From the NCBI GenBank assembly GCA_002862785.1, contig PKDZ01000066.1:1-53591 (forward strand): a stretch of 53,591 nt of DNA, in the 5' to 3' direction. The notes beneath the pieces are model-generated. The model was not told where the DNA came from. It saw only the letters and a list, made by a program, of their open reading frames with translations, and did not search any database. Below are positions 3,964-45,867 of the stretch, piece after piece. Origin of the DNA: Flavobacteriales bacterium. Its GTDB lineage: Bacteria > Bacteroidota > Bacteroidia > Flavobacteriales_D > Sanyastnellaceae. The position numbers were made by a program, and so were the translations under genes. Position 1 is the stretch's first letter; each line of letters opens with the position of its first letter.

Positions 3964-4960
3964 GCTGGGCCTTGTACCACGCCGCGTAGTCCGGCGCGAA
4001 GTAGGTGAGGATGATGTCCGCTCCGGCGCGGCGAATGGCCCCGAGGACCTCCAGCATGCCGGCCTCGGCATCAAGGAATCCCGCTGCGGCGCCCGCCTTG
4101 ACAAGCGCGTACTCGCCGCTGACGTTGTACGCTGCCACCGGCAGGGCTGTGTGCTCCTTGACCGCCCGAATGACATCGAGGTAAGCCAAGGCCGGCTTCA
4201 CCATCACGATGTCCGCGCCTTCCATCTCGTCGAATTCGAGCTCACGCAGCGCCTCGGCCACGTTGGCGGGGTCCATCTGATACGTCTTCTTGTCCCCCGA
4301 CTTTGGGGCGCTGTCGAGCGCATCCCGGAACGGACCGTAAAAGGCACTCGCGTACTTGGCGGTGTAGGCGAGGATGCCGGTCTCGTGGTATCCGTTCTCA
4401 TCCAGCGCCTCACGAATGACCCCGATGCGGCCGTCCATCATGTCGCTCGGGCCGATCCAATCGAATCCAGCCTGCGCCTGCGCCACGGACATCCGGGCCA
4501 GGATGGGCAGAGTCGCCTCATTGTCAATGCGACCTTCCTCCGTCACCACCCCATCATGCCCGTCTGAGCTGTAGGGGTCCATGGCCACATCACTCATCAG
4601 GCTGCACTCAGGAAAGCGCTCTTTGACGTTGCGGGCAATACGCAGATAAAAATTGTCGTCGGCCCAACTGTGGCTTGCCGTCTTGTCCTTCAGGTGCTCC
4701 TCCACCGCCGGGAAGAGGCAGAAGTTGCGGATGCCCAAATTCCAGGAGCGCTCAATCTCGGCGAGCAACTTGTCTTCGCTGAGTCTGGCCATGCCGGGCA
4801 GGGTGCCAATGGGGTCCTCGATGCCGGCGCCGTCCACGCAAAACAGCGGGTAAATGAGCTGCTCGGGGTGAAGCCGGGTCTCGCGCGCCAAACCGCGGAT
4901 GGCCGCATTGCGGCGGTTGCGCCGCGGACGCGACGGCTGGAAGGGCAGCATGTCCTCCAT
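3956..4960 (-). CDS. hemB: Porphobilinogen synthase (5-aminolevulinate dehydratase)
   Basis: Condenses two 5-aminolevulinate molecules to porphobilinogen in heme synthesis. With the ATG at 4960 it has 334 residues, the normal length. The Schiff-base lysines are in LAYTAKYASAFYGPFRDA (K202) and MVKPALAYLD (K255). The metal loop is DVAMDPYSSDGHDG (125-138): cysteines of the zinc-type enzymes are absent and replaced by aspartates, which marks the magnesium-type, non-zinc subclass. The start shares its A with the TGA of the upstream lipoprotein (TGATG), which decides for 4960 over the GTG at 4963; the 3' end overlaps the fur-family gene by 8 nt. Confidence 0.96.
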   Translation of the reverse strand: MEDMLPFQPSRPRRNRRNAAIRGLARETRLHPEQLIYPLFCVDGAGIEDPIGTLPGMARLSEDKLLAEIERSWNLGIRNFCLFPAVEEHLKDKTASHSWADDNFYLRIARNVKERFPECSLMSDVAMDPYSSDGHDGVVTEEGRIDNEATLPILARMSVAQAQAGFDWIGPSDMMDGRIGVIREALDENGYHETGILAYTAKYASAFYGPFRDALDSAPKSGDKKTYQMDPANVAEALRELEFDEMEGADIVMVKPALAYLDVIRAVKEHTALPVAAYNVSGEYALVKAGAAAGFLDAEAGMLEVLGAIRRAGADIILTYFAPDYAAWYKAQHG

Positions 4961-5457
4961 CACTCGGTGGCGCGATCGAAATCGGCCCGGAGGCTGTCGA
5001 GCGCAGCCAACAATGCCTGCTGAATCTCGAGGATCTCCTCGTCGCTCAAGCCGTCGGGCAACGTGGCGCCATGGTCGTGGCTGTGGTCATGACCGTGATC
5101 GTGACCGGCGTGGTCTCCATGATCATGGCCTTCGTGACTGTGGTCGTGGGTGCAGGCCTGGCCCGGAATCTCCATGACGGTCTCCGACCAGTCGTGGAAA
5201 CGAACATCAATGCGGTCGAGCTTGCCCTCGAGCTTGGCGAGCTGCGCAGCGAGCAGGGTGTCGCCGGCCACCATCGCGGAATCAATCTGGCCCTCGAGGG
5301 GTTCCATGGCGTCGAGAATGGCATCGTGCAGCTCACCGCTGATGCGGGTCAACTGCTCGTGAACGGCCTTGGCCTCCGTCATGGAGGCACTCTCCTGCGG
5401 ATCGCCGCAAGACGCCAACAGCGCCACGGCACACAGTCCAAGAATGCATTGCTTCAT
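4960..5457 (-). CDS. Histidine-rich lipoprotein, probable metal-binding
   Basis: A 165-residue predicted lipoprotein: MKQCILGLCAVALLASCGDP gives a lipobox LASC with C17 as the lipidated residue. A helical region (about 25-95) is followed by a histidine/aspartate-rich segment built from HDHSHEGHDHGDHAGHDHG and HDHSHDHG, then an acidic helical tail. His-rich clusters of this form usually bind zinc, nickel, copper or cobalt; which metal is not readable. It is the first gene of a coupled run with hemB (TGATG overlap) and the fur-family gene. I reject an open extension to 5622, because the promoter-like TAATTTCA ends 5 nt before this ATG and because the lipobox needs this start. No named family recognised. 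Confidence 0.8.
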   Translation of the reverse strand: MKQCILGLCAVALLASCGDPQESASMTEAKAVHEQLTRISGELHDAILDAMEPLEGQIDSAMVAGDTLLAAQLAKLEGKLDRIDVRFHDWSETVMEIPGQACTHDHSHEGHDHGDHAGHDHGHDHSHDHGATLPDGLSDEEILEIQQALLAALDSLRADFDRATE

Positions 5458-5462
5458 GCACG

Positions 5463-5470
5463 TGAAATTA
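5463..5470 (-). promoter_or_regulatory. Putative -7 element of the His-rich lipoprotein operon, overlapping the yidD stop
   Basis: TAATTTCA on the minus strand, 5 nt before the lipoprotein ATG. Its first three bases are the TAA stop codon of yidD (5468-5470). Confidence 0.5.
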
Positions 5471-5740
5471 GCCCGCATCCTCGGGCTGACCGCCCCCTTC
5501 ACCCTTCTTGGGTCGGAGCGGCACGGGATCATGGCCTGACGTGCCCCACGGATGGCACTTGGCGATGCGCTTCGCCCCCATCCATACGCCGCGAAGTGGG
5601 CCCCATTCGCGCAGCGCTTCAATCATGTACGCTGAGCATGTCGGCTGATGACGGCAATTGCTGCCGAGCCACGGCGAAATCAGGACCTGGTAGCCCCGCA
5701 CGAGAACGATGAAGACCGCCGAAAGGGCGCGGCCGATCAT
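5468..5740 (-). CDS. yidD: Membrane protein insertion efficiency factor YidD
   Basis: A 90-residue member of the small YidD family, which assists YidC/Sec-dependent insertion of inner-membrane proteins. The family signature is complete: YQVLISPWLGSNCRHQPTCS (three conserved cysteines around CRxxPTCSxY) and the C-terminal AKRIAKCHPWG followed by GHDPVP. An amphipathic N-terminal helix (IGRALSAVFIVLVRGY) fits membrane attachment. It overlaps the end of folA by an ATGA junction (start 5740, folA stop 5737-5739). In many bacteria this gene lies next to rpmH and yidC; here it is instead in a thyA-folA operon, while rpmH is 25 kb away. Its TAA stop is also the start of the next promoter motif. Confidence 0.95.
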   Translation of the reverse strand: MIGRALSAVFIVLVRGYQVLISPWLGSNCRHQPTCSAYMIEALREWGPLRGVWMGAKRIAKCHPWGTSGHDPVPLRPKKGEGGGQPEDAG

Positions 5741-34269: not shown

Positions 34270-37200
34270 TCACAGAGGCTGGACCTCGGCGGATTCCCCC
34301 GTGTCGCAATAGAAGACGAAGCCCCGCACGGGTCGGGATTCGGTATTGGCCAGTGCCGTCATATAGCCCCTCACCTGGTCCTGATGCTTTTTGCGCTTGG
34401 CGTCGGTCACCTTGGTGACGGTCTTGAAGTCAATGACATCGACCCCGTCGTCCCGGAGCACCACACGGTCCGGCCGGACCAGTTTGCCATCGGCCGCGAC
34501 GAGTTCGCGCTCGTTGTGCACGGTCCCAGACCCATCGAACCACCGCGACATCACCGGGTCGGACACCACCTTCCGGACCACATCGCAGACCCGATTCCAA
34601 TCCGCCTTGGAACACCGGGTCCAGGACCAAGGCCGGCCCAAAACCCGGTCCACATCGCCCACCCGAACGATGCGGGCAAGCTGTCCATGCACAGCGGTTC
34701 CAAACGCCTTGGCATCCATCGTTCCCAAAGCAGGTCGATCGAGATCACGCTTGCGACCGGCAATCACCTCTCCGGAGATGCCATGGAATCGGAAGGACTC
34801 CAAACTGCAAATCTCCGGCCCCTCCCCCCGGTCAGACTCCAGCGGAAGTGAAGCCTCGAAATCCGAGGTCCGAAAGGACCGTTGGGCCAGGTCGCATCCC
34901 ATGGCCGTGTCGATGGCGCGCGCCATGGCCCGGCCGATGCGCTTGGGCGGTTCCTCCCCGGCCCAATCCGCCTTCTCCACATCAATGACCACGTGCAGCC
35001 GGACCTCCGCCCGCGTGGTGCAGACGTAGGCCACATTCGTCTCATCGAACCGCTGCTGGTCCCGCTCCCGCTCCCAGGTATCATGCGCCGCAGTGGACTT
35101 CAAGGCACTCAGCGGAGCCACGACCCCGGGAATGCCATAGACCTCCTCGGGCAACCAAGCCGGCATGAGGGTGCGGTCATCCTGAATCAAGGTGTCGTCG
35201 AAGCGGGTAATGACCACCGGATACTGCAGCCCTTTGCTCTTGTGAACCGTCAGGATTCGCACGGCATCGGGACCCGGCAGCACGCGGATGGACTGCTTGT
35301 GCCCCTTGCGATGCCAATGAGCCAGGAAGCCCGACCGTCCCCCATCCTGGGCCGCCCGTTCCCGCGTCATTTCGAGCAGGGCCTCGGCATGGGCAGGGTG
35401 CGCCTGATCGAGACCGAGCGCATTCAGAATGCGGCCGATGCACTCGGCCAATGGCAGGGCCGACCACGAAGCCAAATCAAATCCGGACACCACGTCCTTG
35501 AGCACCGCGCCGCCATCGAGCGAGCCGTACCGCTTTTCCGTTCCGTCCTTTCTCGGCTTTCGAATCTCCCGATGGTGTTTGGCAATCAACGCGGCCTCAT
35601 CCCACGGTTCTCCCTGCCGCGTTCGAATGGCGCCGAGAGCCTGCAGAAACCGCAAGACCGGCCCCGCCTCGCGTGGGTCTTCCATGGCCTCGAGGAGATG
35701 AATGACGGCCAAGGAAGCCGGGTGACGACCGAGGGCCAGACTCTCGTCGGTGAAGGGCACGATCTGATCCGGGCGGGACAGGAGGTATTCGGCAATCCGT
35801 TTGGCCTCTTTGTTCTTTCGGACGAGGACGGCGATGTCTCCGGCCGCGAATCCATCGGCCGTCGCCTGCCGGATCCTCGCCTCCATCCAGGCACACACCG
35901 CGTCAAACCGGTCGTCTGCCGTCTCCTCGACCAGCACCTCCACCTCCACGCCTCCCGGAAATGCCTTCATCGGAGTCTGTTCCACGTCTCCATAAACCTC
36001 AGCCAACGACGGCTCTAGGTCCCCGGACAATGCGCGAAACACGCGGTTGTTGAAGTCCACCACCTGCGGAGCGCTGCGCCAATTCTGCACGATGGGCACC
36101 CGCACCATCTCATCGCCCATTCGGCCGGCAGCATCGTGAAGCGCCGGGGACAGCGCCGCACCATCATCGAGGACGAAGCCAGGCAAGGCGCCCAACTGAC
36201 GGTGGTCACCATTGCGCCAGCGGTAGATGGCCTGCTTGGCATCCCCTACCACCAGCGACAGCTTTCCATGTCCCAAAGTCTCCCCGACCGCCACCGCAAG
36301 GTTGTGCCATTGGGTCACCGACGTGTCTTGGAACTCATCGATGAAAATGTGGTCGTACCGTTCCCCGGTGCGCTCAAAAATGTATGGGGCTGGATTGTCC
36401 CGAACCACCTCGGAAATCATCCGGTTGAGGGTGCCCAAGGTCCGCACGTTTTCCTCCCGCTGGACCTCCTGATGGGCCTGCCGCAAGGTCGACAGGGTGC
36501 CAACGAGGGGCAGCCGGCGACTCAGCATTCTCCGGGTCCGAAAATCTCGACCTGGCTCATCCGGCCCCATGGCCGCCTCCTGCTCAGCGAGGGCCACGAG
36601 CCGATCGTGGAACGGGGCGATGGCCGCCTCGGACGCCTCGTCGTCCTTCTTTGCCCAGATGCCGTTCTCGATGCCGTTGCGCAGTTTGACACCCTGCTCC
36701 TTGGCCTGACCGAGCATGAGGCGGGGAAGCCAGCTCTTCATCACCCATTTGCCTGTGAACGCATCATACAGCCCAGCCTGTTCAAGGTCCCGCGCGAGGC
36801 CTGTCGCTTCCGCGATGAGGGCCTGCTTCCGGGCCTGAACCTCGTCCTTCATTGCCTGACCAATGGCCGTGAATTGGGCCGGGTTCCACCCATCCAGGCG
36901 CGCCAGAAGGGGCTGCATCTGCTCGTAGTCAATGGCCTTGCCAATGTCCAGCAACTGCCGGCGCACCTTGGCATCCCGATCATCTTCGACGGCCACCTCG
37001 ACAAACCGACCGAGCAACTCGGTCAAATCTGGGTCCACCCCCAGCTTCTCGAGCACCTTGTCCACGGCCGCCTCGAGCAGGCGCGACGTGTCCAGCTCCA
37101 CATTGAAATCATGCTCGAGCTGGAGGTCCGTCGCAAAGCCGCGCACCAGGCCACCGACAAACTTGTCGAGGGTCATGATGGACAGCTCGCCGTAGTGCCG

Positions 37201-37527
37201 ATTGAGATCCTCCCGCAATCGGCGGCATCGGCGTCCGATCTCCTCGGAATCGAGCCCGGTCTCCTTCTCAAGACCCGGAAGATGAGCACTGTCCGATGGC
37301 CGGTCCGCGATGCGCTCAATCTCGGTCACGACGCGGTCCTTCATCTCCTGTGCCGCCTTGTTGGTGAAGGTCAAGGCCAGAATTTTGCGGAAAGGAAAGA
37401 GCTGGTCACTCGTGAGGCAGCAGGCGAGGTAGGCCTCGACCAGGCGGAAGGTCTTGCCACTTCCCGCGGAAGCCCCCATGACCCGGAACCCCGTCGGCAT
37501 CGTTCCTTTCCTCACCATCGCGACCAT
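34270..37527 (-). CDS. UvrD/RecB-like helicase-nuclease (AddA-type)
   Basis: A protein of about 1085 residues with superfamily 1A helicase motifs and a C-terminal PD-(D/E)XK nuclease. Motif I is GASAGSGKTFRLVEAYL near residue 20; motif Ia contains ILALTFTNKAAQEMKDRV; motif II is HIFIDEFQDTS; motif III KLSLVVGDAKQAIYRWRNGD; motif V RILTVHKSKGLQYPVVI. The nuclease core is VRPDRVVLRDDGVDVIDFKT (D-x-K) with DQVRGYMTAL after it. The architecture is that of AddA / RecB. Start: ATG 37527 has GAACTTGA 4 nt before it, ATG 37500 fits the conserved N-terminus more tightly. Likely partner: AddB-like protein at 49406-52222. Confidence 0.9.
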   Translation of the reverse strand: MVAMVRKGTMPTGFRVMGASAGSGKTFRLVEAYLACCLTSDQLFPFRKILALTFTNKAAQEMKDRVVTEIERIADRPSDSAHLPGLEKETGLDSEEIGRRCRRLREDLNRHYGELSIMTLDKFVGGLVRGFATDLQLEHDFNVELDTSRLLEAAVDKVLEKLGVDPDLTELLGRFVEVAVEDDRDAKVRRQLLDIGKAIDYEQMQPLLARLDGWNPAQFTAIGQAMKDEVQARKQALIAEATGLARDLEQAGLYDAFTGKWVMKSWLPRLMLGQAKEQGVKLRNGIENGIWAKKDDEASEAAIAPFHDRLVALAEQEAAMGPDEPGRDFRTRRMLSRRLPLVGTLSTLRQAHQEVQREENVRTLGTLNRMISEVVRDNPAPYIFERTGERYDHIFIDEFQDTSVTQWHNLAVAVGETLGHGKLSLVVGDAKQAIYRWRNGDHRQLGALPGFVLDDGAALSPALHDAAGRMGDEMVRVPIVQNWRSAPQVVDFNNRVFRALSGDLEPSLAEVYGDVEQTPMKAFPGGVEVEVLVEETADDRFDAVCAWMEARIRQATADGFAAGDIAVLVRKNKEAKRIAEYLLSRPDQIVPFTDESLALGRHPASLAVIHLLEAMEDPREAGPVLRFLQALGAIRTRQGEPWDEAALIAKHHREIRKPRKDGTEKRYGSLDGGAVLKDVVSGFDLASWSALPLAECIGRILNALGLDQAHPAHAEALLEMTRERAAQDGGRSGFLAHWHRKGHKQSIRVLPGPDAVRILTVHKSKGLQYPVVITRFDDTLIQDDRTLMPAWLPEEVYGIPGVVAPLSALKSTAAHDTWERERDQQRFDETNVAYVCTTRAEVRLHVVIDVEKADWAGEEPPKRIGRAMARAIDTAMGCDLAQRSFRTSDFEASLPLESDRGEGPEICSLESFRFHGISGEVIAGRKRDLDRPALGTMDAKAFGTAVHGQLARIVRVGDVDRVLGRPWSWTRCSKADWNRVCDVVRKVVSDPVMSRWFDGSGTVHNERELVAADGKLVRPDRVVLRDDGVDVIDFKTVTKVTDAKRKKHQDQVRGYMTALANTESRPVRGFVFYCDTGESAEVQPL

Positions 37528-37531
37528 GCGG

Positions 37532-37539
37532 TCAAGTTC
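37532..37539 (-). promoter_or_regulatory. Putative -7 element of the AddA-like gene
   Basis: GAACTTGA on the minus strand, a weak match (nAnnTTnn), 4 nt before the ATG at 37527; listed because of the conserved spacing. Confidence 0.25.
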
Positions 37540-37627
37540 GTCCCTTCCTCCCCATTCCCCAAGGCCCCTGCACACCCCGTGGAGGACAATTGCAACTTGA
37601 GGGACGCACAGACCGTTATGAAATCAG

Positions 37628-37639: not shown

Positions 37640-38413
37640 ATGCGCTCCTCCTTCCGACGCCACCTGCTCTTACCGGCCCTCGTGCCGGTCGCCCTGATGA
37701 TGCTCGTCCTCGCTCCGGGATGCAAACCCGAGCCGCTCCACGGCGGACCCGGCACGCTGACCCTGACAGCGGACTTCACCTTCGGCGGAGACAGCGTCCT
37801 CGTCGGACGGACGGCCACAGACGCCAAGGGCAATGCCCTGCGGCTGGAGACCTTTTCGCTCTATCTCGGTGGCATCGAGCTGCTCAACGATACCGGCGCC
37901 ATCCGACTGTCGGATGCCGAACGCTGGAATGCAGGAGACGAAAACGAATGGAGCTACATCATCGACCCCGGCACCTATGAGGGCTTCCGGGTGCACCTCG
38001 GGGTGCCAGCCGAGTTCAACACCGACACCGACCCCACCATCTGGCCCAATGCCCATCCGCTTGGCGTCAGCGGCAGCGCCGGCATGTTCTGGAGCTGGAA
38101 CACGGGCTACATCTTTTCCAAGTTCGACGGCAAGGCGGACACCACAGGCGGAACGGAGTTCCTCCATCCGTTCGCCTACCACATCGGCGGGGACGAGCGC
38201 CTGATTGAGGTCCGTTATGGATCCCCGTGGGAGGTCAATGAATGCTCCAACCACGCCTTCTCCCTCAGCGGCGAGCTGCTCGACTTCCTCGTTCTGGGAA
38301 ATGACACGATTGACGTGGCGCAGGACAACATCACGCACTCGGGGGACAACCCGGCGCTTGCCGACCGCTATGTGGCCGCCCAGACGGCGGCGGTGACCCT
38401 CATCAAGCCGTGA
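37640..38413 (+). CDS. MbnP-like copper-associated lipoprotein
   Basis: A 257-residue exported protein. The signal sequence ends in LVLAPGC, a lipobox-like motif (C28). The conserved family features are LRLETFSLYLGGIELL, WSYIIDPGTYEGFRVHLGVP, the proline-rich entry NAHPLGVSGSAG and the highly characteristic MFWSWNTGYIFSKFDGKAD, followed by FAYHIGGDE. This is the MbnP family (periplasmic partner of the di-heme enzyme MbnH). In characterised pairs MbnH oxidises a tryptophan of MbnP to kynurenine, which creates a Cu(I) site; the WxWNTGY segment holds candidate tryptophans. The MbnH-like gene follows 27 nt downstream. Confidence 0.88.
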   Translation: MRSSFRRHLLLPALVPVALMMLVLAPGCKPEPLHGGPGTLTLTADFTFGGDSVLVGRTATDAKGNALRLETFSLYLGGIELLNDTGAIRLSDAERWNAGDENEWSYIIDPGTYEGFRVHLGVPAEFNTDTDPTIWPNAHPLGVSGSAGMFWSWNTGYIFSKFDGKADTTGGTEFLHPFAYHIGGDERLIEVRYGSPWEVNECSNHAFSLSGELLDFLVLGNDTIDVAQDNITHSGDNPALADRYVAAQTAAVTLIKP

Positions 38414-38428
38414 TCCCGAGGGCCTCCC

Positions 38429-38436
38429 GATCTTGA
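38429..38436 (+). promoter_or_regulatory. Weak -7-like element of the MbnH-like gene
   Basis: GATCTTGA, 4 nt before the ATG at 38441, in a 27-nt gap; degenerate and listed only for spacing. Confidence 0.2.
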
Positions 38437-38440
38437 AGTC

Positions 38441-39565
38441 ATGATGCTGACGGTCCCCTTCCGCCCCTCCGCACGCCTCCTGTTTCCGGGGGCGCTCGTG
38501 CTGGCCGTGGTCTGGATGGCCGGATGTGGTCCCGACGAGCCGACGGAATGCACGACGCCACCCGGCGCGACAGCCTTGGAAATCGACATTCCGCCGTTCT
38601 TTCCCCCGATGGACATTCCGCCGGACAACCCCACCACCGTCGAAGGGGTGGAACTGGGTCGGTTGCTGTTCTGGGAAAAGGGACTGAGCGCGGACAGCAC
38701 CCAGAGTTGTGGGTCGTGCCATCTGCCGGCGTTCTCGTTTGCCGACCCCAACCCCGTGTCCACCGGCATCACCGGCGCCCAAGGCAACCGCAATGCCATG
38801 GCGCTGGTCAACATGGGGTGGGCCCAGCGCTTCTTCTGGGACGGCCGGGCCGCCACCCTCGAAGAGCAGGTGCTCGAGCCGATTCCCCACCCCGACGAGA
38901 TGAACCTGCCGTGGCCAGAAGCCGTGGCGCGGCTGGAGGCCGACCCCGACTACGCGAAACGGTTCCAGGTTGCGTTTGCCAGCGAGGCCATCTCCCCGGA
39001 AACCGTCTCCAAGGCCATCGCCCAGTTCCTGCGCACGATGGTGTCCGCCGACAGCAAGTTCGACCGTTGGCGAAAAGGACAGGCTCAATTGACCGACCTC
39101 GAATTTCAAGGCTACGAGATTTTCAACCGTGAAGGCGGTGACCCGGAAGTCGTCCAAGGCGGCCAGTTCGGCGGGGATTGCTTCCATTGCCATGGAGAGG
39201 CAGGCCTTCAATTCACCGATTACCTCTTCCACAACAACGGGCTCGACAGCACCTTCGCCGCCGACCCTGGACTGGCCGGCATCACCGGCGTCGCCCTCGA
39301 CAGCGGCCGTTTCCGCACGCCCACCCTCCGCAACGTCGCCCTGTCACCGCCCTACATGCACGATGGGCGGTTCGGCACCCTGGAGGAAGTCATCGACCAC
39401 TACGATTCAGGCGGTCACCCTTCGGCCACCATCGACCCGTTCATGAAATACAGCAGCGGAGGACTCATGCTGCAGCCCCAGCAAAAGGAGGCTCTCCTCG
39501 CGTTCCTGCATACCTTGACCGACACCGCGTTCGCTTCCAACCCCGCGTTCTCGGACCCGCACTGA
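38441..39565 (+). CDS. Di-heme cytochrome c peroxidase family protein (MbnH/MauG-like)
   Basis: A 374-residue lipoprotein (lipobox WMAGC, C29) with two c-type heme motifs: SCGSCHLPAFSF (C90-x2-C93-H94) and GDCFHCHGEAGL (C247-x2-C250-H251). The domain has GVELGRLLFWEKGLSADSTQ, RNAMALVNMGWAQRFFWDGR, PEEVLEPI-type continuation (EQVLEPIPHPDEM) and FRTPTLRNVALSPPYMHDGR, all normal for the bacterial CcpA/MauG superfamily. Adjacent to an MbnP-like gene, it fits the MbnH branch, which installs kynurenine rather than detoxifying peroxide; an ordinary peroxidase role is the alternative. The cell must export and heme-load it in the periplasm. Confidence 0.9.
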   Translation: MMLTVPFRPSARLLFPGALVLAVVWMAGCGPDEPTECTTPPGATALEIDIPPFFPPMDIPPDNPTTVEGVELGRLLFWEKGLSADSTQSCGSCHLPAFSFADPNPVSTGITGAQGNRNAMALVNMGWAQRFFWDGRAATLEEQVLEPIPHPDEMNLPWPEAVARLEADPDYAKRFQVAFASEAISPETVSKAIAQFLRTMVSADSKFDRWRKGQAQLTDLEFQGYEIFNREGGDPEVVQGGQFGGDCFHCHGEAGLQFTDYLFHNNGLDSTFAADPGLAGITGVALDSGRFRTPTLRNVALSPPYMHDGRFGTLEEVIDHYDSGGHPSATIDPFMKYSSGGLMLQPQQKEALLAFLHTLTDTAFASNPAFSDPH

Positions 39566-39568
39566 TCC

Positions 39569-40825
39569 ATGACCCTCCGCCGACTGATGCTGACCCTCGG
39601 GCCCGGCATCCTGTTTGCCTCCACCGCCATCGGCACCAGCCACCTCGTCCAGGCCACCCGCGCAGGCGCCGACTATGGATTTGCCCTCCTCTGGGCCGTG
39701 CTCGCTGCCAACATCGCCAAGTACCCCTTCTTTGAGTTTGGAACCCGATACGCCAATGCCACGGGCACCTCGCTTATCGCTGGCTATCACACGTTCGGCC
39801 GCTGGGCCTCATGGGCGTACCTCATCCTGACGGCCCTCACCTGCGCCTTTGTGATGGGCGGCGTCGGCATCGTCACCGCCGCCTTCCTCGACCACCTGTT
39901 CGGCGCCTCCGCCCTCCTCGGATTCAACGCCACACCCCATGTGGCGGTAGCCACCTTCACCGGATGTGTCGCCGTGTTGATGGTCGGGCGTTATGCCGCA
40001 CTCGACAAGGTGATCAAAGCCATCAGCCTCGTGTTGCTCATCGGCACGGTCGGAGCGACCATCGGCGCCCTGATGCACACCCCCCTCTCAGCCGTTCCGC
40101 CGGCACCGGAGGGGTTCAACCCTTGGCAGGGCGCGGAATTCACCTTCCTCATCGCCCTCCTTGGCTGGATGCCCTCGGCCGTGGACCTGAGCCCGTGGAT
40201 CAGCATCTGGACGCTGGAACGCTACCGGCAGACGGGGTTCAAACCAGCCCTGCGCGACGCCGTGCGGGAATTCAACCTCGGCTACGCCTTCTGCATCCTG
40301 CTCGCCTTCTGTTTCCTGCTCCTCGGCGCTCTGCTGTTGCGAACGCACGACATGGCCCTACCCAGCGGCACCGCCGCCTTCGCGGCTGGCATCATCGGCC
40401 TCTACACCGAAGTGCTCGGAAGTTGGAGCACCCCCTTTGTCGGGTCCGCCGCCTTCGCCGCCATGCTCGGCACCTGCATCGCCTGCCTCGACGGCTTCAG
40501 CCGGAGCTTCAGCCACGGCATCGCCGCCCTGCGCGAGGTAGAAGTGGAGTCCCGACACGAGCGGATCAGCTTGGTGCTCATCTCGCTTGGGGCCCTGCTG
40601 CTAATTATCGTCTTCCCGGAGGACATCCGGACCCTGCTGGACTTCGGCAACATCCTCAGCTTCTGCGTTGCCCCGCCGGCCGCGCTGGCCATGCTCATCC
40701 TCGTCACCCGCCGGAAATTCCCGACAGAGGCCCGGCCCCGGCCCTGGCTCATCGGGGCCGCCGTGCTGGGACTGGGCTTCCTCGCGCTGCTGACGGTGCT
40801 CTACCTCCGGCATGTGATGGGCTGA
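39569..40825 (+). CDS. Divergent NRAMP-family transporter without the canonical metal site
   Basis: A 418-residue protein with about eleven membrane helices. The fold assignment comes from the N-terminal GPGILFASTAIGTSHLVQAT, then the YPFFEFGTRYANATGTSLI block and the region FTFLIALLGWMPSAVDLSPW with ISIWTLERYR. In true NRAMP manganese/iron transporters TM1 has DPGN and TM6 has a MPH motif; here those sites read STAIGTSH and MPSAVD, so neither the Asp/Asn pair nor the Met/His arrangement is conserved. It begins 3 nt after the MbnH-like gene and is probably co-transcribed. Substrate may be another divalent ion (Mg), or something different. From memory, similar proteins occur in other Bacteroidota. 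Confidence 0.8.
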   Translation: MTLRRLMLTLGPGILFASTAIGTSHLVQATRAGADYGFALLWAVLAANIAKYPFFEFGTRYANATGTSLIAGYHTFGRWASWAYLILTALTCAFVMGGVGIVTAAFLDHLFGASALLGFNATPHVAVATFTGCVAVLMVGRYAALDKVIKAISLVLLIGTVGATIGALMHTPLSAVPPAPEGFNPWQGAEFTFLIALLGWMPSAVDLSPWISIWTLERYRQTGFKPALRDAVREFNLGYAFCILLAFCFLLLGALLLRTHDMALPSGTAAFAAGIIGLYTEVLGSWSTPFVGSAAFAAMLGTCIACLDGFSRSFSHGIAALREVEVESRHERISLVLISLGALLLIIVFPEDIRTLLDFGNILSFCVAPPAALAMLILVTRRKFPTEARPRPWLIGAAVLGLGFLALLTVLYLRHVMG

Positions 40826-40914: not shown

Positions 40915-43900
40915 ATGGTTGGATGCAACCCCGGCGGCGGGTCCGCCGTAACACCGTTCATGGGCACCCGCTTCACGAAGATTCTCTTGTTGTCCGCCCT
41001 TGCGGCGGTCTCGACCGGAGACCTCGCGGCCCAATGCCCCCAGTTCCTCGGAACCGAAGTGGTGACTGACCTTCCCGCCACCGCTACCAGTCCGCACTGG
41101 TTCCAGTGCATCGGCAGCGTCACCGCCGACCCCAGCCCCTTCACCTTTGAACTGACCGCCCAGCCCGCGACGCACACCGGGGTGGTCATCGATTGGGGCG
41201 ACGGTTCCCCCACCGAATCCATCGGCAACTGGAACGGTTCCACCCCCATCGCCCATGGGTACACGCCGGACGAATGGCGCAACTACACGATCACCGTCAC
41301 CACGACGGCCTGCCCGGCCGGAGCCTCCGGCACCCTGGTCTATGAGCCCGAGACGCCTGGAGCCGGATTGGTCTATGGCGACAGCAATGCCGGCTGCGCG
41401 CCCTTCATCGGGTTACCCCGGATCGACGTCAACCTCGCCTTCAGCCCGAACTGGAGTTTCTCGCTCGATTGGGGGGACGGAACGGCCGCAGACACCTTCA
41501 CCATGGAACAGGTGCTCAACGATGCCGCCTATGACACCTTGAAATTCGTAGCCGGATCGGGCGATGAAATCGTGCGCATCTCCGGGATGTCGCACACCTA
41601 CCAGTCGCAGAACTGCGCCATGGGCAACTGCGACCACGACCTGACCCTGATCTACTCCAACTTCTGCTCGGTCCGAGGCGGCAGCACGCCCTACGTGCCG
41701 GGCGGCACCATTGTGGGCACCGGATACAACGAGGCCCTGCTGGGCAACGCCTTCCTGACCTGGGACGTCGACGAAGCGGAAATCCAGATCACCGACCCGG
41801 TGGTGTGCTGGCCCAACAACGAGACGAGCGTGGGCAATGCCTCCTGCCCGGATTGCTGCGACGCCTCCAGCGGCAACAACGTGGCCGGCAACGGCACCGT
41901 CCGGACCGAGAAATGGGACTTCGGCGGCGCCACCTACATCGGAAGTGGCCCCAATCCGACCAACTGGATTGACTGGAACGGAGACTGCGCCAGCGGCCAA
42001 TTGCATGACCTCTCCTTCCCGGGGCCGGGCATCTACACGGTGACCCTCTTCACCGCCAATCACTGCGGAATCGACACCGTCACGCGCGACATCACGGTCG
42101 CCCCGCCCCCCACCGTCACCGCGACGAGCAGCCAGACCAACCTCTGTCCCGGCGAACCCTTCCAGTTCGAGACCGTGGGCTGGAGCGCGGACCCACCCCT
42201 CACCGCGGACGACCTGAGCTTCAACTTCACCTATGGCGACGGACCGTTCTCCATCACCATCGCCATGGTCGGAGGTCTGATTCCCTTTGAGAACATCCCG
42301 GCCCAGCCCGGAAACGTCTACTCCGCCGCGGGCAACTATGACGCCACCGTCCAAGTATTCCCGACCCTGTCGCCGTCTTGCCTCGGAGCGGGCGTCATTC
42401 CGGTCACGGTCCTGACGCCGCCCACGGCCGACTTCACCTTGCCGCCGGACGCCTGCGAAGCCGAAGCCACCGTCCAGCCGGTCGACGCCTCCACGGATGC
42501 GCTGGACTACGCCTGGTCCCTCTCCGGTGTCGGTCCCATCGGCACGACGGCGGTCGTGGATCCGGTCACCCTCTCCGGGCCCGGCAACTTTACGTTCGAC
42601 CTCACGGTGACGTCCTCCAATGGCTGCAGCGATTCGCAGAGCCGGACCTTTGCCCTGGCCGACCTGCCCGTCGCCGACTTCGCCGTGGAGGATGCCTGCC
42701 TCGGGGTCCCAACCGTCCTCGACGGCACACCGTCCTCGACCGATGCCGCCTTCGGTGGCGCCATCGTCTCGCACCAATGGACCCTTGAAGACGGTACCCT
42801 TCTCTCGGGAGACACCCAGACCGTTGACTACGGTGGACCGGGCAATCAGACCGTCGAACTCATCGTGACCACGGCGACGGGGTGCACCGACACCCTCAGC
42901 CAAACCTTTGAAATCCTGCCCCGACCGGCGGTCGGCTTGTTGGAAGGCGACACGATGGGATGCAGCCCGTTCACAGTTGAACTCAATGCCCTCGACTCAA
43001 CGGGCCTGACGACGCCGTCCAGCTTCACCTGGGACTACGGACACGGCGGCGCGACCGGCCCGAATGCCGATGGAACCCACACCTGGCCCCCCAACAACGG
43101 AGAGGACACCCTGTACTACGACGTCATCGTAGAAGCCGGCCTCGGCGGATGCACGAGCTCCGACCAGCTGACCGTCGCGGTTGCCCCATCCCCCTTCGTC
43201 CAGACCGACGGCGGCGAGGTCTGCAGCGGCAACCCCTTCCAATTCGAGGGCAATGCCTTCAACCTCGGCGACAACTCCGAGTGGTTCTGGGAAGTGGACC
43301 AGGTCTGGTCGACGGTGGTGGAGGACTACGGCACGATCACCAGCGATTTCGACGACTTCCAATGGACCTTCGTGAACCCGGGATTCGCCTCCGACACGGT
43401 GTCCATCGCCGTCACGGTCACCCGGCCCAACGGGTGCTCCGCCACCGACCAAGCCAGCCTTTACGTGCGCCCTTCCTACGCCCCCTTCGTGGAGGACGCC
43501 GATGGCTGCGTTCCCTTCGCCGTGGGCACACCGCCCCAGGTCGCCCTCGATGTCCAGTGGGACTTCGGGGATGCAAACAACCCCAACGCTCTGGGGGCCA
43601 CGGCCCACTTCTACACCGAACCCGGCACCTACACGGTGGTGGCCGAGGGAATCAGCGTCTTTGGCTGTGCCGGATCGGATTCCTCCACCGTCATCGTTCA
43701 CCCCACGCCGACCCCGGCCTTGACCGCCGAAAACGTCCTCTGCGCGCCCGACCCGGTGAACCCCGTCCGTTCCGACGCCGCAACCGACGGGGCCAGCAGT
43801 TGGAGCCTGCAGGTCGACCTCGGCACGATCTACCCCTGGAACGGGGCCACCGACACGACCCTGGCGCTCGAACCCGGCAACCACCTATTGACCCTCATCG

Positions 43901-45867
43901 CCACCAGTGACGAAGGCTGCGTGGGCGAGACCAGTGCGGAAGTCCTGGTGCAAGAAGAAGTCACAGCCGGCTTCAATCTGCCAGAGGATGGATGCTCCCC
44001 CATCGCCTTCGAAGTGACCAGCGTGGACATTCCGGTCAATGCGGTGGGCACCTGGACCATCGACACGCCGTTTGGAACCGACACGGTCCAGACGGCGGCC
44101 CCTTCCGCACCCGATTGGCTCACGGATCCCACCGCAGGGTCCACCACCTACGCGGTCATCCTCGACGTCGAGGATCCCCTCACCGGGTGCGCCGCCCAGC
44201 ACACCGATTCGATCACGGTCCTGCCCCAACCGGTGGGCGAGATGTCGGTGGCCGGACTCAGCGGCTGCGACGTCATTGCCACGTTTGCCTACAGCGGTGC
44301 GGCGGACGCCTTGACTTGGACCTTCGGCGACCCCTTCAATCCGGCACCGGAAACCACGACGGCAACCAGCATTTCCCATGCCTACCCCAACCCGCTCGGT
44401 ACCGGCTATACCGCCGCCGCCACGGTCACGGCCAGCATCGGAACCTGCGCGGACACCGACCAAGTCAGCTTCGACATCCCCGCCATCGTCGAGGCCGAAA
44501 TCAGCCTGCCGGACACCGTCTGCATGGGCACTTCGGTGCCCCTCGAAAACCTGTCGACGGGCGTGCCCCTCGCCATGGGCATTGCAAGCGGAGCGTGGAC
44601 CTGGACGGTCGGGAATGACACCCTCGTCGGATTTGAACCGGTCTTGCCCCCGCTCGACTCCAACACGGTGAATGCGGGACCCCAGACCAATGCCATCCTG
44701 CCCGTCACCCTGACCATTGTCCACCCCGAAAGCGGATGCTCCGACGAGACGGACGCCACCATCGTCGTGCTGGGCAATCCCGTGGCCAGCTTCATCGCCA
44801 CCCCCGACGCCCTCTTCGAAGAGCCTTACACAACCAACCTCATCGACCTGAACCAGGTCGCAGCCGGAGGCGCCACCTTGTGGAGCGTCAGCGGTGGAGG
44901 GGAACTGGACGAGGCAGCGGGCACGGTGACCTGGCCGGTCAACACCCATGGCGTCCAAACCATCACCGTGGTCCTGGACAACAACGGCTGCACGGACACC
45001 TTCAGCCAGGAGGTCTTGCTCGTTCCGCCGCCGCCCTTCATCAGCTTCGAAGGCGACACCACATCGTGCGCCCCGCTTCAGGCCAGCTTCGACCCAAGCA
45101 TCATCGGTGTGGTGGACAGCGTGGTCTGGTCCTTCGGGCAGGGCACCACCCGCGTGGTGCAAGACCAACCTGAGGACCCGATCGGATTCAACTACTTCGA
45201 GCCCGGCACCTACACCGTGGGCGTCACGGCCTATGGACCGGGCGGCACCGCCATATCCGAGACCCAGACCGTCGTGGTGCTGGACCAGGTCAATGCCGGC
45301 TTCTCCATCTTCCCCGCCGAGTGCGTTGAGGTCGGGGATGTGGTCGAATTCACCCCGAACTTCAATTACGACGGGGCCGTCTACAGCTGGCAATTCGGGG
45401 ACGGAACCGAACTCGAATCTCCCGAGGGCGGCATCGTGACGCACACCTACAACGAGGCGGGCAGCCCCACCATCACGTTGACCATTGAGAATGCCCTCTG
45501 TACCGACAGCACCTCCCGCGTCGGCTGCATCATCGAGTTCCAAGGCGGCAGTGTCGGCGTGCCCAGTGCCTTCACCCCGACCTTCGGCGGCGATGGCTCC
45601 GGCGCCCAGAATTACGGCGACGATGACCTCCGGGACAACGACGTTTTCTTCCCCCAGATTGATGGTACCCCCATTGCCTACAGCTTCACGGTCTACAACC
45701 GTTGGGGAGAACAAATTTTCAGCACCTCCGACCCCTCCGTTGGGTGGAACGGCCACTTCCAGGGCAAGCTCTGCAAGCAGGACGTCTACGTCTGGCGGGT
45801 GGCCGCCGTGTTCATCGATGGAACCTCGGTGGAACAGGCCGGGGACGTCACCTTGATCCGCCGATGA
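40915..45867 (+). CDS. Giant PKD-repeat surface protein with type B T9SS C-terminal domain
   Basis: A 1650-residue secreted protein. The signal peptide is GTRFTKILLLSALAAVSTGD ending near LAAQ; an ATG at 40960 would start directly at it, while 40915 adds 15 residues and has a promoter element 4 nt upstream. The body is a long row of Ig-like/PKD beta-sandwiches (recurring forms such as WDFGGATYIGSG, WDYGHGGATGP, WSFGQGTTR, YSWQFGDGTE and the YxxPGTYTVxxxA ending), with paired cysteines about one per domain. The last about 95 residues (VPSAFTPTFGGDGSG ... VYNRWGEQIFS ... VYVWRVAAVFIDGTS) are the gliding motility-associated (CHU_C, type B) sorting domain. Likely an adhesin on the cell surface. 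Confidence 0.93.
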   Translation: MVGCNPGGGSAVTPFMGTRFTKILLLSALAAVSTGDLAAQCPQFLGTEVVTDLPATATSPHWFQCIGSVTADPSPFTFELTAQPATHTGVVIDWGDGSPTESIGNWNGSTPIAHGYTPDEWRNYTITVTTTACPAGASGTLVYEPETPGAGLVYGDSNAGCAPFIGLPRIDVNLAFSPNWSFSLDWGDGTAADTFTMEQVLNDAAYDTLKFVAGSGDEIVRISGMSHTYQSQNCAMGNCDHDLTLIYSNFCSVRGGSTPYVPGGTIVGTGYNEALLGNAFLTWDVDEAEIQITDPVVCWPNNETSVGNASCPDCCDASSGNNVAGNGTVRTEKWDFGGATYIGSGPNPTNWIDWNGDCASGQLHDLSFPGPGIYTVTLFTANHCGIDTVTRDITVAPPPTVTATSSQTNLCPGEPFQFETVGWSADPPLTADDLSFNFTYGDGPFSITIAMVGGLIPFENIPAQPGNVYSAAGNYDATVQVFPTLSPSCLGAGVIPVTVLTPPTADFTLPPDACEAEATVQPVDASTDALDYAWSLSGVGPIGTTAVVDPVTLSGPGNFTFDLTVTSSNGCSDSQSRTFALADLPVADFAVEDACLGVPTVLDGTPSSTDAAFGGAIVSHQWTLEDGTLLSGDTQTVDYGGPGNQTVELIVTTATGCTDTLSQTFEILPRPAVGLLEGDTMGCSPFTVELNALDSTGLTTPSSFTWDYGHGGATGPNADGTHTWPPNNGEDTLYYDVIVEAGLGGCTSSDQLTVAVAPSPFVQTDGGEVCSGNPFQFEGNAFNLGDNSEWFWEVDQVWSTVVEDYGTITSDFDDFQWTFVNPGFASDTVSIAVTVTRPNGCSATDQASLYVRPSYAPFVEDADGCVPFAVGTPPQVALDVQWDFGDANNPNALGATAHFYTEPGTYTVVAEGISVFGCAGSDSSTVIVHPTPTPALTAENVLCAPDPVNPVRSDAATDGASSWSLQVDLGTIYPWNGATDTTLALEPGNHLLTLIATSDEGCVGETSAEVLVQEEVTAGFNLPEDGCSPIAFEVTSVDIPVNAVGTWTIDTPFGTDTVQTAAPSAPDWLTDPTAGSTTYAVILDVEDPLTGCAAQHTDSITVLPQPVGEMSVAGLSGCDVIATFAYSGAADALTWTFGDPFNPAPETTTATSISHAYPNPLGTGYTAAATVTASIGTCADTDQVSFDIPAIVEAEISLPDTVCMGTSVPLENLSTGVPLAMGIASGAWTWTVGNDTLVGFEPVLPPLDSNTVNAGPQTNAILPVTLTIVHPESGCSDETDATIVVLGNPVASFIATPDALFEEPYTTNLIDLNQVAAGGATLWSVSGGGELDEAAGTVTWPVNTHGVQTITVVLDNNGCTDTFSQEVLLVPPPPFISFEGDTTSCAPLQASFDPSIIGVVDSVVWSFGQGTTRVVQDQPEDPIGFNYFEPGTYTVGVTAYGPGGTAISETQTVVVLDQVNAGFSIFPAECVEVGDVVEFTPNFNYDGAVYSWQFGDGTELESPEGGIVTHTYNEAGSPTITLTIENALCTDSTSRVGCIIEFQGGSVGVPSAFTPTFGGDGSGAQNYGDDDLRDNDVFFPQIDGTPIAYSFTVYNRWGEQIFSTSDPSVGWNGHFQGKLCKQDVYVWRVAAVFIDGTSVEQAGDVTLIRR

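Follow-up and report, generated by a model that had tools for sequence, protein, structure and literature searches.

The closest described relatives of the locus reported here are the proteins MbnP and MbnH of Methylosinus trichosporium, in which the di-haem enzyme MbnH reportedly turns the first tryptophan of a WxW motif in MbnP into kynurenine, allowing Cu(I) binding. Histidine and methionine are among the copper ligands of MbnP. We analysed a stretch of 53,591 nucleotides (nt) from a Flavobacteriales bacterium of the family Sanyastnellaceae (assembly GCA_002862785.1, contig PKDZ01000066.1, positions 1 to 53,591), hereafter called the window. Its genome, of which it forms contig C12, measures 2.44 Mb and is 98.5% complete. 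The window carries a MbnP/MbnH pair followed by a gene for a NRAMP-related membrane transporter. The locus is real and a little unusual, in that a common pair is followed by a third gene specific to one lineage. A genus with a transporter gene stably behind mbnH offers a handle on the role of MbnP/MbnH outside methanotrophs and on any membrane partner of the pair.

The window resembles the M. trichosporium system in the gene pair itself, the WxW motif, the two CxxCH motifs, the fold of MbnP and the sequence of MbnH. It differs in that both proteins score below the NCBIfam cut-offs and in that a third gene is present. The methanotroph system of MopE/CorA with SACCP/CorB is alike in having a copper-binding surface protein with kynurenine encoded beside a di-haem enzyme gene (PMC3912023), but the part of that article drawn on here describes no transporter gene.

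A third gene behind mbnH in one genus

The MbnP gene (37640..38413, plus strand) encodes a 257-amino-acid (aa) member of the Pfam MbnP family, the MbnH gene (38441..39565, plus strand) a 374-aa di-haem enzyme of the MbnH/MauG type, and the NRAMP-like gene (39569..40825, plus strand) a NRAMP-related membrane transporter of 418 aa. An earlier note on this DNA had placed these three genes at 37640-40825, with spacers of 27 nt (MbnP-MbnH) and 3 nt (MbnH-NRAMP-like) and the family phrase FWSWNTGYIFSKFDGKAD for MbnP; the sequence bears out the coordinates, strand, spacers and phrase. At the second junction (39563..39571, plus strand), the MbnH stop TGA, the 3-nt spacer and the ATG of the NRAMP-like gene follow one another.

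The reading that we favour, tentatively and at somewhat less than an even chance, is that the known MbnP-MbnH pair gained a lineage-specific third gene: a transporter was recruited and is co-expressed with the pair as a metal-response unit. As homology suggests, the di-haem MbnH would act on the exported MbnP, oxidising its Trp151 to kynurenine and thereby creating a Cu(I) site. A NRAMP-related gene would have landed directly behind mbnH in the ancestor of most of the genus, in a place that would permit translational coupling to mbnH across the 3-nt spacer. In the sister genera, the NRAMP-related genes lie in other conserved neighbourhoods, and the slot behind mbnH is held in many loci by a YkgJ-type CxxCxxCC gene. 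The transporter itself would most likely move transition metals across the inner membrane and be co-expressed with a copper-site protein; recruitment would work without direct handover from MbnP. The three gene products are probably made together in the genus.

The NRAMP-like gene was found in 13 of the 17 genomes of the genus. Its junction with MbnH was readable in 12 genomes and intact in 12/12, and an arrangement kept to this extent is more than chance. With start codons picked by script, the MbnH/NRAMP-like spacer measured 3 nt in 11 genomes and 4 nt in one (G110). In the same 12 genomes the MbnP-MbnH spacer measured 19-31 nt, and the spacer between the NRAMP-like gene and the following gene, which encodes a PKD protein, measured 88-118 nt in 11 of them. 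The carriers' MbnH is 77-94% and their NRAMP-like protein 79-96% identical to that of the window. In the thirteenth carrier (G547) the NRAMP-like gene is cut by the contig end, and the same PKD gene follows. Three genomes (G086, G543 and G549) have MbnP-MbnH-PKD without the NRAMP-like gene, and in G545, which is 67% complete, neither a MbnH at E up to 1e-90 nor a NRAMP-like gene was found.

For comparison, 20 loci of the family were fetched, picked for their MbnP/MbnH matches and hence a non-random sample. In 11 of these 20 loci, MbnH is followed by a YkgJ-type CxxCxxCC gene of the same orientation, and in one more by such a gene on the opposite strand; one copy was confirmed as PF03692. PF03692 had no match in any of the 17 genus genomes, so the transporter occupies the slot of the YkgJ-type gene. 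The latter (L096:9536-10039 and 10 further family loci) is itself a possible partner of the MbnP/MbnH pair. The former neighbour c14 was present in 6/6 genus genomes tested; the remainder of the old neighbourhood was not found around c14 in these six (only c12, in G086), so that no clean empty site could be made out in them.

Homologues of the pair are common in the order: MbnP was matched in at least 124 and MbnH in at least 139 of 150 genomes, and MbnP and MbnH lie in one run in the window and in 20/20 family loci. The NRAMP-like gene was matched in 70 of the 150 order genomes; across the phylum, 66 of 395 genomes had a match with E no higher than 1e-20. With flanks of 1.5 kb, MbnH lay near it in 4 of 30 loci of the order and in 1 of 30 of the phylum. 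With longer flanks, MbnH lay near it in 0 of 20 order loci (several kb where the contig allowed) and in 3 of 80 named loci (as much as 8 kb, although many contigs end sooner). Every positive locus belongs to the window's genus. The named loci are the best 80 of 578 confirmed. There is overlap among the four sets: both L003 and L132 stand for the window; L162, L163 and L184 appear to repeat G551, G553 and G544. Outside the genus, no MbnH adjacent to the NRAMP-like gene was found in the loci examined, and elsewhere, including sister genera, the gene has other conserved neighbourhoods. The triple was rejected as a general MbnP/MbnH arrangement since the adjacency is confined to the window's genus in these loci. 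The neighbourhood survey that the earlier note called for thus did not find the three genes co-conserved in relatives beyond the genus. Of the metal-handling module proposed there, the real MbnP/MbnH pair and the NRAMP-like gene as a steady third member within the genus stand. Among the top-ranked results of a literature search, no publication on MbnP/MbnH with a NRAMP gene was found; the neighbourhood surveys in PNAS 2021 and JBC 2019 may already report such a case.

The MbnP/MbnH pair

MbnP scored 75.3 bits against Pfam PF20243 (cut-off 27) and 43.2 bits against the NCBIfam equivalog TIGR04052, below the cut-off of 140; it is therefore assigned to Pfam MbnP and not to the equivalog. Its predicted structure (predicted local distance difference test, pLDDT, 88.6) matched M. 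trichosporium MbnP (7l6g_D) with Z 16.9 and a root-mean-square deviation (rmsd) of 3.2 over 200 aligned residues at 17% identity. This was the sole strong fold match, the second-best reaching Z 6.4. By sequence, 7l6g matched the profile of alignment A1 at E 0.8 only, and it was not among the matches of the MbnP2 or trimmed profile A4 searches. Alignment A1 was made without L044, A2 without L024, and A3 without L067, L071, L074, L076, L082, L084 and L091. The WxW motif of MbnP, Trp151-Ser-Trp153, lies at 38090..38098 (plus strand). Both tryptophans, together with Tyr157, His181 and His233, are invariant in 29/29 aligned rows, and Met149 is kept in 28/29. Going by the M. trichosporium work, we take Trp151 to be the expected kynurenine.

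The N-terminal cysteine of the window's MbnP lies in LAPGC, an imperfect lipobox that misses the pattern, and its three closest relatives have better lipoboxes (MATGC, LLVGC and LVSGC) that all fit it; MbnP would thus be a likely lipoprotein for the genus and an uncertain one for the window copy. The lipobox-like pattern occurs in at least 11 of the 29 MbnP rows and at least 17 of the 23 MbnH rows, counts that are lower bounds because many rows start downstream of the signal. The window's MbnH carries a lipobox-like MAGC, which fits the pattern.

Against Pfam CCP_MauG, MbnH scored 187.6 bits (cut-off 25.6), and against NCBIfam TIGR04039 266.3 bits, below the cut-off of 362.85. Four MbnH relatives that were scanned also fell under the TIGR04039 cut-off (240.5-271.1 bits), so this branch of MbnH appears divergent. 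The closest match in the PDB was the di-haem enzyme 6e1c (E 1.1e-62), presumably from Methylosinus trichosporium. The first haem motif, CGSCH (residues 90-94), lies at 38708..38722 and the second, CFHCH (residues 247-251), at 39179..39193, both on the plus strand, and exactly two CxxCH are found in 23/23 aligned MbnH rows. With the WxW tryptophans in every MbnP row and both haem motifs in every MbnH row, the identification of the pair in the earlier note holds. In L095 and L254 (from G086 and G543), MbnH branches outside the window group and the neighbouring genera, and MbnP groups with the window's genus.

The NRAMP-like protein

The third protein scored 29.5 bits against Nramp PF01566 (cut-off 29.8) and 29.9 in the genome search, which is borderline, and 50.6 bits against NCBIfam NF037982 (cut-off 50). 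Its model (pLDDT 85.7) matched the canonical NRAMP/MntH protein DraNramp (6d91) with Z 39.7 and rmsd 3.3 over 388 aligned residues. NRAMPs were its top fold matches; 7qia, a NRAMP-related protein, reached Z 32.7 and the amino-acid transporter AdiC Z 31.3. By sequence, a family profile of 29 relatives had no match among PDB chains at E up to 1.

The predicted fold is that of DraNramp, but the substrate motifs are not. In transmembrane helix 1 (TM1), the window protein has GTSH (residues 22-25; 39632..39643, plus strand) where canonical NRAMPs have DPGN. Aligned without gaps to 12 canonical Bacteroidota NRAMPs, which were selected for holding DPGN, D-P-G-N is replaced by G-[VT]-S-H. The Gly, Ser and His of GxSH are present in 51/51 family rows, which are the window and 50 of the 80 named loci; the other 30, including incomplete and near-duplicate ones, were left out. 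The four best DraNramp fold alignments start at an offset of 34 residues, placing Gly22 on Asp56, the site aspartate of DraNramp as named in the portion of PMC12873925 used here; in four lower-ranked inward-open or mutant structures the alignments start at offsets 35 to 38. In TM6, the window has GWMPSAVD (residues 199-206; 40163..40186, plus strand) where canonical NRAMPs have GATVMPHN. MPH is found in 12/12 canonical rows, and most family rows have MPT or MPS with the register two residues off. Without gaps, the canonical Met is matched by Thr/Ser203 and the His by Val205. Since Met201 stands two residues away and its register is uncertain, the statement on TM6 is less sure than that on TM1.

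Canonical NRAMP identity was rejected, since DPGN is replaced by GxSH throughout the family and MPH is absent. The protein has the NRAMP fold and belongs to a NRAMP-related family whose TM1 site reads GxSH instead of DPGN; the earlier note was right to call it an unusual NRAMP homologue, both canonical motifs being missing. NRAMP-related proteins without canonical motifs are an already-known, diverse and paraphyletic group, according to excerpts of PMC12873925 and PMC9606685. The Mg2+ transporter EleNRMT and the Cellier outgroup (PMC9606685, in the part cited) likewise lack the canonical substrate motif. However, EleNRMT keeps the TM1 aspartate, as do the NRAMP, NRAT and NRMT signatures in the passages of PMC8806188 that we cite, and the window's family lacks it. 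A transporter family with the NRAMP fold but without this shared signature residue, found in Bacteroidota and archaea, is of interest in its own right.

These motifs bear on the model of the earlier note, in which kynurenine-modified MbnP hands copper directly to the NRAMP-like importer or gates it. The operon order and spacing agree with such a handover, and a soft metal would be well served by His25, which is invariant in the TM1 site. However, the canonical Asp is not kept, nor is the Met in the ungapped register, no co-conservation was seen outside the genus in the loci examined, and MbnP/MbnH persist without the NRAMP-like gene in three members of the genus and in other genomes of the order. 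We consider direct handover very improbable.

Archaeal relatives and possible substrates

Sixteen of the 80 named loci are archaeal (Nitrosopumilus, Nitrosopelagicus, Cenarchaeum and thaumarchaeotes). These archaea oxidise ammonia. Nine of the 16 (L210, L215, L216, L224, L226-L229 and L232) have a ferritin-like gene downstream in the same orientation, within 300 nt of the match end in six loci and 0.9-1.2 kb from it in three, and one copy was confirmed as PF00210 (133.6 bits). Because of these neighbours, iron is hinted at as a substrate for part of the archaeal branch, with nothing direct on the window copy; in the window's genus, the operon hints at copper. In a midpoint-rooted tree, all 16 archaeal members group together as a single clade that is nested among Bacteroidota sequences, which suggests a transfer of the NRAMP-related gene between the two groups.

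As in other LeuT-fold families, the substrate could instead be a small organic molecule, Mg2+ or some further cation. The TM1 aspartate of the NRAMP, NRAT and NRMT signatures (PMC8806188, as far as cited above) is Gly in all 51 family rows, and amino-acid transporters such as AdiC share the fold, both of which speak for such a substrate. The best fold matches, however, are NRAMPs, the sole family matches are NRAMP models, and the ferritin-like neighbours in archaea point to a transition metal; we regard this alternative as unlikely. A bolder proposal is a long shot in our view: that the MbnP/MbnH operon captured, in this one genus, a GxSH NRAMP-related transporter of a family shared by Bacteroidota and ammonia-oxidising archaea and retuned it as the inner-membrane partner of a kynurenine-copper protein, giving a unit for acquiring copper (or iron) that does without methanobactin.

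Selection and divergence of the transporter

The analyses of selection, shifts and tree used 11 of the 12 adjacent genes of the genus; the incomplete G544 was left out. In five comparisons with G000, the ratio of nonsynonymous to synonymous substitution rates (dN/dS) was 0.055-0.129 for the NRAMP-like gene, 0.059-0.186 for MbnP and 0.050-0.110 for MbnH. The NRAMP-like gene is under purifying selection. In the 84-row transporter tree, the stem of the 11 genus sequences measured 0.72 (100/100); that of the g12-type clade measured 0.52. For MbnH, the stem of this genus group was 0.22, with other sampling and a quicker method. Some genomes are in the transporter tree twice, and the 73 comparison rows include identical rows.

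Of 113 positions with at least 90% conservation in these 73 rows, 11 are shifted in the genus, among them Val23Thr (between the two site residues), Thr203Ser and Asn211Val/Ile. The same count gave 0/104 for the g7 group (14 rows), 0/104 for the four-row group L019/L030-L032, 3/105 for the g12 group (6 rows), 1/110 for the archaea (16 rows) and 5/105 for a two-row group.

Recruitment or hitch-hiking

Several observations weigh against recruitment and retuning. The synonymous divergence (dS) exceeded 1 in 12 of the 15 comparisons. Four two-row clades of the transporter tree have stems of 0.60-0.71, so the genus stem is not singular. Neither the g7 group nor L019/L030-L032 forms a clade in that tree, which makes their zero counts weak controls. 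A clustering of the genus-specific shifts in TM1 and TM6 was rejected as evidence, there being no enrichment (P 0.59). G549 is nested among carriers in both the MbnH and MbnP trees, so its NRAMP-like gene was lost secondarily and is thus dispensable; what follows MbnH there may still hold a vestige of the NRAMP-like start. The helicase, PKD and PorP/SprF genes also keep their places. Gene order at the locus is thus conserved generally, so that adjacency within a single genus says little for a shared function. Transport of metal by the NRAMP-like protein would have to proceed without the metal-binding residues of NRAMPs. Seven of the 16 archaeal loci have no ferritin-like gene, and a search with the archaeal ferritin found nothing around 50 Bacteroidota loci (49 relatives and the window, flanks being limited to 1.5 kb in 30 of them) or in the 64 named loci that are not archaeal, a weak test at such distance. 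Finally, no promoter-like site and no Rfam element was matched at the locus.

Hitch-hiking, in which the NRAMP-like gene was rearranged behind mbnH and shares its transcript but is functionally unrelated to MbnP/MbnH, is a serious possibility, if one that we doubt more than we credit. It would account for an adjacency seen in one genus only, for the unrelated neighbourhoods of the NRAMP-related family elsewhere, for the retention of MbnP/MbnH in G549 after the loss, and for the high background synteny. It accounts less readily for a near-invariant 3-nt spacer across species that have diverged to the identities given above, and the 11 shifts at family-conserved positions fit retuning better than mere relocation.

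Neighbouring genes and further copies

Two synteny markers flank the module. Upstream and divergent lies a UvrD-type helicase gene (34270..37575, minus strand), and downstream the gene for the large PKD protein (40915..45867, plus strand), which has a weak match to CHU_C (type IX). A PorP/SprF gene is also found downstream, and together with the PKD protein it indicates that the host probably uses type IX secretion. A Pfam scan of seven neighbouring open reading frames found no methanobactin genes (mbnA/mbnB/mbnC), a search that covered those seven frames and no other part of the window or genome. Terminator-like matches at the locus numbered 2, compared with 2.4 in shuffles.

A second di-haem MauG-type paralogue stands between MbnP and MbnH in 10 of the 20 family loci, namely at L096:7356-8399 and in L097-L102 and L109-L111, and four copies inspected keep two CxxCH. 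In L098:2975-5027 and L100:6037-8198, the space between the helicase and MbnP holds an extra MbnP along with two small genes. The extra MbnP in L098 is PF20243, and the two copies from L100 had no Pfam match. A second MbnP/MbnH pair is found on contig C38 of G000 (L242:3406-4365 and 4350-5471). Its MbnP has WxW and, judged by eye, a C-terminal tail resembling a type IX secretion signal, so one MbnP of G000 may be membrane-anchored and the other secreted.

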